DNA of 64,000 nucleotides from Aliiglaciecola lipolytica. Its GTDB lineage: Bacteria > Pseudomonadota > Gammaproteobacteria > Enterobacterales > Alteromonadaceae. The translations under genes were made by a program, and so were the position numbers. Within the stretch, counting starts at the first letter, position 1. Each line of letters begins with the position of its first letter. Location of the stretch: assembly GCF_018860635.1 (NCBI RefSeq), contig NZ_JAHKPT010000033.1, forward strand, positions 1 through 64,000, written 5' to 3'. The notes beneath the pieces are model-generated. The model was not told where the DNA came from and did no database searches. It saw only the letters and a list, made by a program, of their open reading frames with translations. Positions 31,734 to 36,750 of the stretch are shown here, piece by piece.

Positions 31734-33875
31734 TCAGTTTGATTGTTGTTTATCAGAATGTTTCTCTGTTATTAGAAGTTCACAAAACTCTTCAAATGGT
31801 AGGGGTTTGCTGAATAAATATCCTTGCGCAGTATTACATTTATTATCGAGTAAAAACTTAGCCTGATATTGATTCTCAACCCCTTCAGCAATAACCCCTA
31901 ATTTTAAGCTGTGTGCCATGGCAATCACGGCCAAAATAATCGCTTTGTCATTCTCGTTCTGTTCTAAATCAATAACAAAAGAGCGATCTATTTTAAGGTT
32001 ATCGATAGGTAACTTTTGCAAATAAGAAAGGGAACTATAGCCAGTTCCAAAGTCATCGATTGAAGTAGAAATACCAATTTTTCTCACTTGGTCTAATAAG
32101 TTTTTAACTTTGTCATAATTATCAATTAATACCCCTTCAGTTAGCTCTAATTCCAAGTTTTTGGATGGAATCCCACTGTGCTGAATGGCTTGAGTAACAA
32201 AATCAAACAAGTGTCTATCGGCAACTTGACGAGGAGATAAGTTGACCGATACTTTTAGATTAGGCTGATGTTGAATAATCACTTTCAACATATCTGTCGC
32301 ACGACTAATCACCCATTTGCCAATAGGTACAATTAACCCGGTCTGCTCTGCAAGAGGAATAAACTTATCTGGGCTGGTTATAGTGCCATCAGCTAAGCGC
32401 CAGCGAATTAACGCCTCTGCTTTAGCGATTTTGCCCGTGCTTAAATCGATGATTGGCTGTAAATAGAGTTCAAACTGATTTTCATCGATGGCTTTTTTAA
32501 GCGCATTTTCTAATTCAAGCCTGTGCATTGATGCTTCTTTAAGGGCTTTTGAGTAAAAACGCAATTTGCTCTTATCTTCTTTTTTAGCGGAAAACATGGC
32601 TAAGTCAGCAAACTTCATTAACTCTTCAGAATCTGACGCATCACTAGGGAAATGGGCCGCACCGAGATTGAGTCCAATCTGCACCTTTTGTTTTGATTCG
32701 GTATAAAAAGGAAATTCGGTTGCTTCTATTAAACGATTGGCAAACTCAATACAGTCTGATTGCTCTTTAGCTCCGGATAAAATAATACCAAACTCATTAC
32801 CCCCAACCCGTGCACATAAATCCGCTGTAGATAAACATTGTTGGATCCGCTCAGCGAGGGTCACCAATATATGGTCACCAGCTTGATGACCATGTAATTC
32901 ATTGATTTGTTTAAAGTGTTTTACATCCAAGTAAACGATGAAAAATGGTTTATCTTTCTCAATTTGGTGTTCTAATTTTTGCCAGAAAAATTGCCGATTG
33001 GGAAGATTGGTAACATTATCATAGAGATTTAACTTTTCATTTCTTTGTAATAGGTATTTGACGCGACTGACATCGCTGAAAATGAATATCCAATTTTGCA
33101 AATTTTGCATTTCGTCGGTAACTGGATATAACGCTAATTTTAACCACTTGCTAGAATACGGCGGTTTATGCCAAAAAAGCTCTCCATGCCAGCGACTGCC
33201 AGTTTCAAAGACCCGCTCAAACTCAGCACATTGGTGTTTAAACAATTCGAGTAAAATCGTAAAGGGGGAAGCCTCATTGGATGCTTCAGAGGTTTCGAAA
33301 AAACTATAAGAATTTGGGTTTTGGCTAATGATATTTAATTGGGAATCGGTAATTACAACACCAAAGTCGGCATTTTCAATGACCTGCTTAATCGGCTCTT
33401 GTAATGATTGTAGTGTCTGGTTTTCACGAAGAACTTGATCTAAACGTTCATGAATATACTCGTGTTGGGCGAGGATTTTATCATTCGATATCAGCAGTTC
33501 GCGGGCCACCTGCAGAGTTTGTTGTTGTTTTTTGTATTCTGCTTGCAAATTGTGAATGACTAAATAAGCTTCGCCCTTTGAAACTGCTGCAATGGCTTCT
33601 AAACGTAATAAATCATCTTTGGATTGTTCGGACCAAATCCCCGACTGAATTTGCCCATCATTACCAATTTGCCAAAAATCTTCGGCATCAATAAAAAAGT
33701 CTTCTAAGTAGGCGGAGTTACCAATAAATTCGAAAAATTCGCTGCCAATTGCCTCTGGCGCTATAGCATAAAACCAATCTTCACTGCAGTGTAATAATTG
33801 GAATTTACGATTTTCTACTCGCTTTAAAATCGCGCAGTTAATAATGCCTAAAGCTTGAATAAGTGATTGTTGCAT
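31734..33875 (-). CDS. PAS-GGDEF-EAL protein, GGDEF degenerate (GGNEF)
   Basis: 713 residues without a transmembrane segment. An N-terminal sensory-like part (1-130) and a coiled stretch (about 130-165) lead to a PAS-like domain (about 168-285, VIENADFGVVITDSQLNIIS), a GGDEF domain (about 295-450) and an EAL domain (about 465-705). The GGDEF signature reads GGNEF, which probably abolishes or weakens cyclase activity. EAL residues look intact: EALIRW, NLSPRQ, ELTEG, DDFGTGYSSL, KIDRSF, IAEGVE. So a c-di-GMP phosphodiesterase is most likely, perhaps GTP-activated through GGNEF. It starts 6 bp after the small GTPase gene and seems to be the last gene of that operon, which suggests it is an output of the GTPase. 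Confidence 0.9.
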   Translation of the reverse strand: MQQSLIQALGIINCAILKRVENRKFQLLHCSEDWFYAIAPEAIGSEFFEFIGNSAYLEDFFIDAEDFWQIGNDGQIQSGIWSEQSKDDLLRLEAIAAVSKGEAYLVIHNLQAEYKKQQQTLQVARELLISNDKILAQHEYIHERLDQVLRENQTLQSLQEPIKQVIENADFGVVITDSQLNIISQNPNSYSFFETSEASNEASPFTILLELFKHQCAEFERVFETGSRWHGELFWHKPPYSSKWLKLALYPVTDEMQNLQNWIFIFSDVSRVKYLLQRNEKLNLYDNVTNLPNRQFFWQKLEHQIEKDKPFFIVYLDVKHFKQINELHGHQAGDHILVTLAERIQQCLSTADLCARVGGNEFGIILSGAKEQSDCIEFANRLIEATEFPFYTESKQKVQIGLNLGAAHFPSDASDSEELMKFADLAMFSAKKEDKSKLRFYSKALKEASMHRLELENALKKAIDENQFELYLQPIIDLSTGKIAKAEALIRWRLADGTITSPDKFIPLAEQTGLIVPIGKWVISRATDMLKVIIQHQPNLKVSVNLSPRQVADRHLFDFVTQAIQHSGIPSKNLELELTEGVLIDNYDKVKNLLDQVRKIGISTSIDDFGTGYSSLSYLQKLPIDNLKIDRSFVIDLEQNENDKAIILAVIAMAHSLKLGVIAEGVENQYQAKFLLDNKCNTAQGYLFSKPLPFEEFCELLITEKHSDKQQSN

Positions 33876-33881
33876 AATTGA

Positions 33882-34373
33882 TTAATTCAACGTTAGTTGC
33901 GCGATAAATTTGAACATTTCTTCAACCTGGTCGCCTGTTTTGGCGCTAGTAGAAAAACTGCGAATAAATTCTTTGCTGTAGCCATTGAGCTCATTTTCAG
34001 TCCAATGCCAAGCTACATCAAGGTCGCTTTTATTAATAATTAGAATTGCAGGAATATCGCTTATTTCTCTTACCATGCGATGAATTTCCATTCCTTCTAC
34101 AAGACTTTGAGAGCGTGTTTGGTCGGTAACTATTGCGTAAGCTGAGGCCCCTCTAAGGTATTTAGGTTGAAACCCACAGTAGCGGTCAATCCCTTCTAAA
34201 TCCCAAATCATAAGTTGCACTTGTTCGACTACTAAATCTACAAGTTTTTTATCAATTTTGACACCAATTGTGGTCAGGTATTTTTCAGAAAAAATACCTT
34301 CAACAAATTGCTTTACCAAACTGGTTTTCCCTACTCCCGAGGGGCCAAGTAGGCAAATCTTTTTTTGCAACAT
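33882..34373 (-). CDS. Ras-like small GTPase (bacterial Rab-type)
   Basis: 163 residues and single-domain, like eukaryotic Ras/Rab proteins. Motifs in order: P-loop G10PSGVGKTS18, switch I YLTTIG (31-36), G3 WDLEG (57-61), NKSD (114-117), SAK (143-145). The residue after DxxG, catalytic Gln in Ras, is Ile62 here, so intrinsic GTP hydrolysis is probably slow or needs a partner. No lipidation motif. Genes on both sides lie on the same strand with gaps of 20 and 6 bp: the OmpA-type membrane protein before it and the GGDEF/EAL protein after it. MglA is the best-known bacterial relative; sequence similarity to MglA is not obvious by eye. The GTPase call is sure; the role is unknown. Confidence 0.88.
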   Translation of the reverse strand: MLQKKICLLGPSGVGKTSLVKQFVEGIFSEKYLTTIGVKIDKKLVDLVVEQVQLMIWDLEGIDRYCGFQPKYLRGASAYAIVTDQTRSQSLVEGMEIHRMVREISDIPAILIINKSDLDVAWHWTENELNGYSKEFIRSFSTSAKTGDQVEEMFKFIAQLTLN

Positions 34374-34393
34374 AATGCGGTTGATGTCCTTAT

Positions 34394-36163
34394 TTAATCA
34401 GTCTTAAAATTGATGATATTAAAAATCACTTTACGTAATCCTGAGCCCGACGCTTTATTTTCTACAACACCCAATCCTATGGCATTTAAATACTGAGCCT
34501 CAATTCCTTGCTCAACTAAAAATTGCCGAGCTGCTAATGCCCGTTTTCGACTTAAAGACTGATTAAATTGCATGGAGCCAGTTGAATCACTTGCGCCCAT
34601 AATAATCAAGCCTACATTTAACTCCAATTTTTTAGACAATTCAATCGCCGCTTTAAGGTAACTCGCTAGGGCAGCCAATTGCTCTTGTGCCTTTTCGTTG
34701 AGTTCACTTTGGCCTTGTTCAAATTCAACCTGGGTACTATCTATTTTTGCCCTATTGATTTCGAAAAGTGCCAAGAGTATTTCTGGGCTATCATCATTGA
34801 TTGTAGCCAATTCTTCGGCGCTGATCCCAGAAATTAACTCTTCCGCATAAGTTAAACCTGGAATGGCATGTATTTCTCTGGCTAACGCTAAGCGCTGAAC
34901 GTTTGGCAGTACACCGCTTAAAACAGGTACAGAAGATTGCCAATCAACGCTTATTTGTGGGTATCGGTCTAATAACTTTTTGAGTCTAGCCTTAACCAAT
35001 GGTGCTTCTAGGGATAAATATTGTTTTTCAATTACTTGTACACTGCTGGTATCGATTTGCTTTTCAGACATCCATTGCCTTACGGTTATGGCCTCGGGGT
35101 CACGTAAGATTGACAGCTTGATATCCTGCCATCCTGCTCTTTCTAATTTACTTATGACGATACCCGGTTGTTTACCGATTTGCGAAACATTTTCTAATAG
35201 TTGAGTGTGTTGGTAATTGTTAAATCCTAAATAGCCTAGTCCGATGAAAATGAGTAACAGCAAACCAATGGCGAGAATCGGCTTTCTTTTTCGTTTTTTT
35301 ATTGCTTCCGGGCGCATCTCCGCAACCAAACAATCTCGAAGTTGTTGGGATGTGGGTTCAAACACAATAGTGTCGCCATTAAAATTAGCAATTTCTTTGG
35401 CATAGAGCTTATGAATATACTCATTGGTAATTTCAAATTTGGTAGATATATCCTGTGGAATATTACCCGTAACAGCAGCGACCAAAAGCAACTTTGGCCC
35501 GCGCTTTATCAGCAACGAAAAATCTTCGGTTTTTATAACCTCTAGATTTTGTTCTGTGGATTCCTGTTGTGAATTAAATGAATCAGATACAAAGTCATTT
35601 ATTGCCGTCAGCATTGCTGAAACAAGATCTCCATCGGCAGATTCATTAACCGATTGAGATACCGAATTAAGTAAAATCCCAGTTTCCCTGTGGATTAACA
35701 AAACTTGCTCAACTTTAAATACGAAAGTTTGACTCGCCACATATTGAGAAAAGCTTACGCCTGATTGCCACGCTTTAAAGCGCCAGGCCATCCCTTTAAA
35801 CGTCAGGCTATTTTCAATTAATACATTGGTTTTTTCTAAAAATTCACTTAGAAATGAGGTGACAGATTTGCGAACTAAGCGACCTACCAGTGGGTATAAA
35901 TAACCAACAAATTGTTCACTCTGTTCTTTGACTGATTTTTCCACTGACTGCTGCACGACGGGAGTCAGCACGTTGGTGAATTCGTCATTGCGTTTTTGCC
36001 GATCGTGAATCGCTTCAATCACAACCTCGCCGACAATTTCACGCGCATTGTCTTTGAGGACTTGTTTAATTTGTTCTCGATTTTTCCCCAATAAAAGCTC
36101 ACGCAGCTGTTGCATGGCTACGTCATCTTCATGTGGTTCGCTGTTATTTGGATGGTCAGCCAT
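34394..36163 (-). CDS. Single-span inner-membrane protein with C-terminal OmpA domain
   Basis: 589 residues. Residues 1-290 are cytoplasmic and helical at first; about 150-265 (VEQVLLIHRETGILL .. GDLVSAMLTAINDFVSDSF .. LLIKRGPKLLLVAAVTGN) have the alternation of a roadblock/longin-like fold, the type that partners small GTPases (my inference). A transmembrane helix at 296-314 follows KKRKRK, placing the rest in the periplasm. About 330-440 looks like BON-type repeats, and 478-587 is an OmpA C-terminal domain (GASDSTGS, LSRKRALAARQFL) for peptidoglycan binding. It could connect the cytoplasmic GTPase with the cell wall. Its gene lies 11 bp after the coiled-coil gene and 20 bp before the GTPase gene. 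Confidence 0.8.
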   Translation of the reverse strand: MADHPNNSEPHEDDVAMQQLRELLLGKNREQIKQVLKDNAREIVGEVVIEAIHDRQKRNDEFTNVLTPVVQQSVEKSVKEQSEQFVGYLYPLVGRLVRKSVTSFLSEFLEKTNVLIENSLTFKGMAWRFKAWQSGVSFSQYVASQTFVFKVEQVLLIHRETGILLNSVSQSVNESADGDLVSAMLTAINDFVSDSFNSQQESTEQNLEVIKTEDFSLLIKRGPKLLLVAAVTGNIPQDISTKFEITNEYIHKLYAKEIANFNGDTIVFEPTSQQLRDCLVAEMRPEAIKKRKRKPILAIGLLLLIFIGLGYLGFNNYQHTQLLENVSQIGKQPGIVISKLERAGWQDIKLSILRDPEAITVRQWMSEKQIDTSSVQVIEKQYLSLEAPLVKARLKKLLDRYPQISVDWQSSVPVLSGVLPNVQRLALAREIHAIPGLTYAEELISGISAEELATINDDSPEILLALFEINRAKIDSTQVEFEQGQSELNEKAQEQLAALASYLKAAIELSKKLELNVGLIIMGASDSTGSMQFNQSLSRKRALAARQFLVEQGIEAQYLNAIGLGVVENKASGSGLRKVIFNIINFKTD

Positions 36164-36174
36164 AAAAATTGGCT

Positions 36175-36726
36175 TTAATCTTCGTCAGATTCTAAATTAA
36201 CAGCCATGGTTGCAAGTAGTTTGGCCAACGTCTTCCTATCTGTTTTAGTTGAACTGAGTTCTTTGGTAACCTGATCCAACCTTTCCAACGCTTCGGCAAA
36301 TCGAGCGTCATATTTCTCGGTGAGCATGGCAACTTCTTTATCAACTCGAGTATGCAGTTCATCAGTCTCTTGACGGCCATTGGTGTCTGACATTTCTAAT
36401 TCAGAAGATAGTTTGTCGGCATAGGCGTTAAGTTCAGAGGTTTTATCTTCGTAGACTTTGTCCACTGAATTGACTTTAAGCTGTAAATCTTCAAAGCCAT
36501 TGTGCATGGATTTATTCAAGTCTTTGACGTGTTCTGCTAACTTTTGTTCAGCCTGTTGGAAGCGTTCTAACATTCGGCTTTCTAAATCTGACAACCTATG
36601 TTCAATATCTGCTTGAGCAGCACCGAACACAATTTGTCGTAAAGTAGCTAGTTCTGATGGGGTTTCACTACTGATATTGGGGGTCTCATCGACTACGGTT
36701 TTATTGTCTGACTTGTTATTCGCCAC
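36175..36726 (-). CDS. Coiled-coil protein of unknown function
   Basis: 183 residues from GTG 36726, with AAGGAA upstream; the frame can be read from GTG 36750. Residues 1-30 are polar and disordered-looking; about 40-170 is a continuous coiled coil (ADIEHRLSDLESRMLERFQQ and onward), and the tail is acidic (ESDED). No signal peptide, so it should be cytoplasmic. It is the first gene of the cluster with the OmpA-domain membrane protein, the small GTPase and the GGDEF/EAL protein. A scaffold or spacer role is the only inference the sequence allows. Confidence 0.75.
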   Translation of the reverse strand: MANNKSDNKTVVDETPNISSETPSELATLRQIVFGAAQADIEHRLSDLESRMLERFQQAEQKLAEHVKDLNKSMHNGFEDLQLKVNSVDKVYEDKTSELNAYADKLSSELEMSDTNGRQETDELHTRVDKEVAMLTEKYDARFAEALERLDQVTKELSSTKTDRKTLAKLLATMAVNLESDED

Positions 36727-36750
36727 TTTCACTTCCTTCTGCTTAAACAC

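Follow-up and report, generated by a model that had tools for sequence, protein, structure and literature searches.

The 64,000-nucleotide stretch under study (the window) is from Aliiglaciecola lipolytica, whose genome has 5.03 Mb on 36 contigs, and contains a four-gene locus with a small GTPase. The four open reading frames (ORFs) are all on the minus strand and span positions 31734-36750, with intergenic gaps of 11, 20, and 6 bp. They encode, in this order, a coiled-coil protein, a membrane protein with an OmpA domain (the OmpA protein), the GTPase, and an output protein with PAS, GGDEF (here GGNEF), and EAL domains (Table 1). This layout had been proposed from the letters and ORFs (the sequence-only reading), and the ORF lists, from which ORFs shorter than 90 amino acids were left off, agree with it, as do the Pfam matches. 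The locus almost certainly belongs to the Group 1 Rup GTPase family. On balance, we favor the reading that it encodes a signaling module in which the envelope state acts through a longin-fold domain on the GTPase and thereby on the output enzyme.

Table 1. Features of the four-gene locus in the window.
Feature	Position	Strand	Basis or remark
Coiled-coil cytoplasmic protein	36175-36726 (ORF listed to 36750)	minus	Likelier start GTG at residue 9
LRQIVFG motif of coiled coil	36622-36642	minus	Also in OmpA protein
OmpA protein, inner membrane	34394-36163	minus	Pfam, hydropathy, structure model; N to C: cytoplasmic helical region, predicted longin-fold domain, one transmembrane helix, periplasmic region, OmpA domain
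LRELLLG motif of OmpA protein	36086-36106	minus	Counterpart of coiled-coil motif
Predicted longin-fold domain, residues 147-283	35315-35725	minus	AlphaFold2 model of residues 13-293
Membrane helix, residues 293-317	35213-35287	minus	Hydropathy scan
OmpA peptidoglycan-binding domain, residues 481-572	34448-34723	minus	Pfam, alignment
Rup Group 1 small GTPase, 163 amino acids	33882-34373	minus	Pfam Ras, alignment
G3 motif WDLEGI of GTPase	34188-34205	minus	Asp retained; Ile at position of catalytic Gln
Output protein	31734-33875	minus	PAS-like N-domain and long helix, second PAS, GGDEF (GGNEF), EAL
PAS-like N-domain and helix, residues 1-164, with Q122 and R125	33384-33875	minus	AlphaFold2, Foldseek, conservation
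GGDEF domain, motif GGNEF, residues 284-435	32571-33026	minus	Pfam, alignment
EAL phosphodiesterase domain, residues 457-691	31803-32507	minus	Pfam, catalytic residues

The GTPase matches Pfam Ras (E 5.5e-27), and the solved proteins closest to it in sequence are Rab35 and Rab23. Among the aligned members, with the window included, the G3 Asp is present in 71/71 and the Gln in 1/71. The GTPase is the sole single-domain Ras match of its own genome, four more Ras matches lying within long frames. The sequence-only reading knew of no named system with this make-up, a claim that has to be withdrawn because the Group 1 Rup neighborhood was published by Wuichet and Søgaard-Andersen in 2014 (PMC4316618). 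The available text of that paper gives the neighbors as a coiled coil, a 'domain of unknown function'-transmembrane-OmpA protein, and a cyclic di-GMP (c-di-GMP) enzyme or histidine kinase. It further describes a Rup G3 without the catalytic Gln and a conserved Gln in the N-terminus of the output, places Rab/Ran/Ras/Rho beside Group 1 Rup as very similar, and notes that all Rup members still awaited experimental characterization in 2014. That Rup is the group nearest Rab/Rho/Ras/Ran is repeated in the accessible part of PMC4915359. The window agrees with the description in possessing all four genes, in a G3 with Asp kept and Gln absent, in the conserved Gln of the output (Q122), and in not being coupled to MglB homologs, the Robl_LC7 profile matching in 0/60 genomes, own genome included.

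Hence, the gene set has been known since 2014 as a predicted system, and the predicted longin fold gives its unknown domain a probable role. To the 2014 description, as far as its available text goes, we add this predicted fold, a modeled PAS-like fold of the output N-domain, and, from sequence comparison, putative class III nucleotide cyclase outputs, a conserved Arg of the output, and an LRxILFG motif. The typical outputs named in that paper are the diguanylate cyclase/phosphodiesterase fusion and the histidine kinase, and the cyclase form is not named in its available text (PMC4316618). A longin domain in a Rup system is not named in the accessible text of the open-access literature searched.

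The sequence-only reading had treated the four genes as one unit, and the neighborhood survey confirms that the module is real and conserved far outside close relatives. The nearest named loci, also from Aliiglaciecola, have 88 and 85% identity over the compared region, and the module is present in 9/9 genomes of the genus. In the order sample, 111/148 genomes match; only five of these matches are long, own genome included, and the remainder of those listed are short, almost all of them within the OmpA domain. With a profile of the N-terminal region, 50/398 genomes of the phylum sample were found, as were 11/247 of Bacteroidota, 4/150 of Campylobacterota, and 12/199 of Planctomycetota (one weak); each of the latter three counts includes the center genome, and these assignments follow the labels of metagenome-assembled records. 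All four genes occur in one order and on one strand in 68/72 bacterial loci from named records, so the grouping is not due to chance. The exceptions are L097 and L108 on short contigs, L109 with a diverged kinase output, and L085 with an unrecognized output.

A wider tally covers 113 flanked bacterial loci; it omits the archaeal loci (L110-L116, L222), L001-L037, and loci with short flanks (L117-L146), and L013-L037, which match in the OmpA domain only, were not used. The GTPase is found in the locus of the OmpA protein in 106 of the 113, 105 of them with the coiled coil. GTPase and OmpA protein are on one strand in 104/106, and by frame coordinates the GTPase is directly downstream in 95/106, the remaining loci having, apart from those named below, split or overlapping frames or wider gaps. 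The seven GTPase-less loci include the two on short contigs. As for outputs, 61 loci have GGDEF-EAL, 14 a histidine kinase, 4 a kinase-receiver, 11 a class III nucleotide cyclase, and 6 GGDEF; 10 with a GTPase have an unrecognized or cut output, and the rest are the 7 without GTPase. One of the GGDEF loci (L046) has a split frame and is likelier a broken GGDEF-EAL, the other five being single-domain forms. Pfam Guanylate_cyc matches the four cyclase outputs scanned (E 1.8e-47, 9.7e-17, 7.9e-21, and 5.3e-23); the other seven cyclase calls rest on a custom profile. The cyclase is the fourth gene in L223-L227, L147, L148, L157-L159, and L209, which suggests a cyclic-nucleotide output in these lineages.

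The OmpA protein has a single membrane helix in the hydropathy scan, and its C-terminal domain matches Pfam OmpA with an E-value of 8.9e-11. Asp and Arg of OmpA C-terminal-like domains bind diaminopimelate, and the corresponding D526 and R541 are invariant in 11/11 sequences of the same genus and order. From the known chemistry of the domain and the kept binding residues, the protein should grip peptidoglycan through it. The sequence-only reading had seen a roadblock/longin-like pattern in residues 150-265, and the AlphaFold2 model agrees in predicting a roadblock/longin fold. The modeled domain follows the longin pattern beta-beta-alpha-beta-beta-beta-alpha(-alpha), with a predicted local distance difference test (pLDDT) score of 88-97 in ten-residue blocks over the strands and C-terminal helices. 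A longin fold is thus very likely; our confidence is kept down because the first helix is modeled at pLDDT 58-65. In the structural search, the best longin rows outscore roadblock rows, and the eukaryotic longin-domain Rab guanine nucleotide exchange factors (GEFs) TRAPP, Mon1-Ccz1, and Fuzzy-Inturned are among the best rows. A PHROGs search gave nothing below E 0.025. No GTPase-longin fusion was noticed among the matches listed. Several long frames have a GTPase match (L104, L205, L206, L210, L213, L217, and others); such frames are read stop to stop and run over neighboring genes, and we took them, start sites not having been checked one by one, as read-through and not as fusions. The number of repeats in the periplasmic part of the OmpA protein ranges from one to about six (L147, L130, L209, and others), and one repeat in L209 matches Pfam BON (E 1e-8); repeat number may serve to adjust how far the protein extends from the membrane toward the wall.

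The same longin-like domain is carried by giant proteins of archaeal Marine Group III (L110-L116), where the likeness is biased by a retrieval pattern that favored the conserved helix. In one of them (L116:1-7176), an ectodomain of NosD/beta-helix, laminin-G, and PKD-like parts is followed by one membrane helix, a STAND/AAA-type NTPase, and the longin-like domain. A GTPase domain beside the longin domain was not found in these archaeal proteins, only the STAND/AAA-type P-loop.

A small GTPase with a neighbor of the roadblock/longin superfold is also what MglA/MglB offers, the system to which the sequence-only reading had likened the locus. This likeness of pairing stands, and the identity of the partners does not. 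MglA-type G3 reads TVPGQ and MglB is a separate Robl_LC7 protein; neither was found here. Among 25 Planctomycetota roadblock loci, all 20 GTPases found read YTVPGQ; the window GTPase has WDLEGI, with the Asp kept, and is therefore not MglA. We also rejected Robl_LC7 membership of the longin domain, as the OmpA protein has no Robl_LC7 match in Pfam and hhalign of the domain against 22 roadblock-locus sequences gave a probability of 0.2 (controls 0.6 and 0.1). These 22 are from 25 fetched sequences, three in long frames being excluded, and the frames for L231 and L232 are off center and may be wrong. A polarity system of the MglA/MglB kind, with the GTPase marking a pole and the OmpA protein serving as a roadblock-type GTPase-activating protein (GAP), is accordingly very improbable, all the more as the outputs observed are second-messenger enzymes or kinases. 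The actinobacterial conservon (CvnA-D) is likewise an operon in which a signaling enzyme accompanies a small GTPase and a roadblock-type partner; its GTPase is of MglA type (Group 2), its MglB homolog is separate, and an OmpA anchor is unmentioned in the available text (PMC4316618).

The probable start of the coiled-coil protein is the GTG at residue 9 and not 36750, because its homologs begin there. A homolog is present in 112/113 bacterial loci, the exception being a histidine-kinase locus (L216) in which none was found. An N-terminal helix of LRxILFG type occurs in the coiled coil of 107/112 loci, in the OmpA protein of 83/112, and in both in 79/112; in the controls, shuffled segments gave 0.2 (coiled coil) and 0.6 (OmpA protein), and other ORFs 6/864. 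Because the pattern was set after viewing the sequences, and because the 112 loci are related to one another, these counts are descriptive. Profile comparison of the two N-termini gave a probability of 90 and an E-value of 1.6e-6 over 34 columns. The common LRxILFG/LRxLLLG motif is seen in other phyla, too. We infer that the two proteins dock on each other or on one common partner.

The output protein matches Pfam PAS (E 7e-4, below the curated cut-off), GGDEF (5.5e-40), and EAL (9.6e-74). A hydropathy call of a membrane helix at residues 644-664 was discarded as a false alarm, its position being within the EAL domain. The model of the first 165 residues (mean pLDDT 91.8) shows a PAS-like domain and, after it, a long helix. 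The best Foldseek rows for this region are mostly LOV or other PAS proteins (best E 1.1e-3); a PDB sequence search with it gave a best E of 1.5. By profile alignment, Q122 is kept in 77/82 and R125 in 82/82 outputs with a recognized N-domain, window included. The window protein has the EAL signature and all tested catalytic residues. The EAL Glu is kept in all 62 outputs with an EAL match, counted without selection by EAL pattern; of these outputs, 60 also keep N, two E, DD, K, E, and Q, the further residues tested, and the remaining two have gaps. Among 56 outputs picked by EAL pattern, the GGDEF signature residue is Asp in 24, Asn in 20, and another residue in 12. Because the GGDEF residue varies and the EAL residues are kept, c-di-GMP breakdown is the likelier activity at this locus. 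That the module instead makes c-di-GMP, or merely senses it, seems a slim prospect: some relatives retain an intact GGDEF signature, and outputs with GGDEF only are found in L103, L107, L219, L220, and L221 (placed in Campylobacterota by record label or search center), but the window has GGNEF with an intact EAL signature, and the signature Asp is kept in so few outputs compared with the EAL Glu. Breakdown as output, as the sequence-only reading had suggested, thus fits this locus and does not extend to the family, in which the output enzyme is exchangeable. The own genome has 26 EAL matches; therefore, the operon is one of many c-di-GMP inputs.

In the mechanism that we propose, the OmpA protein would sit in the inner membrane and hold peptidoglycan through its OmpA domain. 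Its cytoplasmic longin domain, probably assembled with the coiled coil via the shared LRxILFG motif, would bind the Rab-like Rup GTPase and control its nucleotide state as GEF or GAP; the switch would thereby be set by the state of wall and membrane. We give about an even chance to the longin domain being the regulator of the GTPase. The GTP-bound GTPase would then bind the output protein at its PAS-like domain and helix, where Gln122 and Arg125 may either complete the active site of the GTPase or sense it; such a role was proposed for the Gln in 2014 (PMC4316618, available text), and for Arg125 it is a new proposal. Binding would determine how active the attached enzyme is. At this locus, that activity is most likely EAL c-di-GMP breakdown; in other lineages, the same switch would drive a diguanylate cyclase, histidine kinase, or class III cyclase. 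This remaining wiring is tentative, with a chance a little below even.

The first and last links of this chain come from domain knowledge, and the middle ones from conservation and fold only. Several observations weigh against it. The poorly modeled first helix of the longin domain holds the domain's most conserved motif, the hhalign comparison with roadblock sequences came out at control level, and a PDB sequence search with the N-terminal region of the OmpA protein returned five rows, none useful (best E 0.49). Also ranking high among the structural rows are longins of SNARE proteins and subunits of clathrin adaptors, which do not act as exchange factors. The GTPase is on the opposite strand in L199 and L205 and displaced in L215, and in Bacteroidota L202-L204 the coiled coil and OmpA protein are present, but neither a GTPase nor an output gene was found in the fetched 12 kb. 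Outputs with no recognizable N-domain comprise 11 of cyclase, 4 of kinase-receiver, 2 of kinase, and 1 of GGDEF type. Q122 is replaced by Asn in four GGDEF-type outputs, the sole Gln of that class being supplied by L046, and by Thr in one kinase. Cyclase-type outputs lack the Arg, with QQ at a like place in 11/11, and their comparison with the N-domain profile gave a probability of 6.2. Finally, two of the three Marine Group III genomes with the longin domain have no Ras match; in the third (L222), a Ras-type GTPase lies near a contig end and may be an own gene or contamination.

The archaeal result would also suit a different division of labor, in which the output protein alone regulates the GTPase, Gln122/Arg125 acting as GAP and effector, and the longin domain only dimerizes or scaffolds the OmpA protein. 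The conservation of these two residues, the missing G3 Gln of the GTPase itself, and the Gln remark in the available text of the 2014 paper (PMC4316618) point the same way. Nevertheless, the Gln gives way to Asn or Thr in 5/82 outputs, the cyclase type is without the Arg, and the GTPase gene stays with the OmpA protein in 106/113 loci whatever the output. We regard this alternative as unlikely and retain the longin domain as candidate regulator.

To our knowledge, the pairing of a Rab-like GTPase with a longin regulator is otherwise known from eukaryotes and some archaea. The locus shares with the eukaryotic longin Rab GEFs (TRAPP, Mon1-Ccz1, Fuzzy-Inturned) a predicted longin-fold domain adjoining a Rab-like GTPase; it differs in that the domain is in a single wall-anchored bacterial membrane protein and that no sequence similarity was detected. 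A bacterial Rab-like GTPase with a membrane-anchored longin regulator would be a wall-to-cytoplasm switch with exchangeable outputs and may preserve the ancestral partnership of GTPase and longin domain that gave rise to the eukaryotic Rab GEF platforms, a view that we consider rather doubtful. If the partnership is real, bench experiments can address whether GTPase and longin domain were paired before eukaryotic membrane traffic arose. With a predicted longin partner in the same operon, the unknown domain becomes a regulator that can be tested; c-di-GMP, cyclic nucleotide, and phosphorylation are direct read-outs of the exchangeable output enzymes.

Promoter-like sites numbered 8 versus 15.6 in shuffles, and terminator-like sites 8 versus 4.9 (standard deviation 2.6); neither count was used for any conclusion. 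Module genes are split by frame breaks in L046 and L066. In L212, from Planctomycetota, two GTPase genes and two output N-domains are present within about 6 kb, which is perhaps a tandem duplication.

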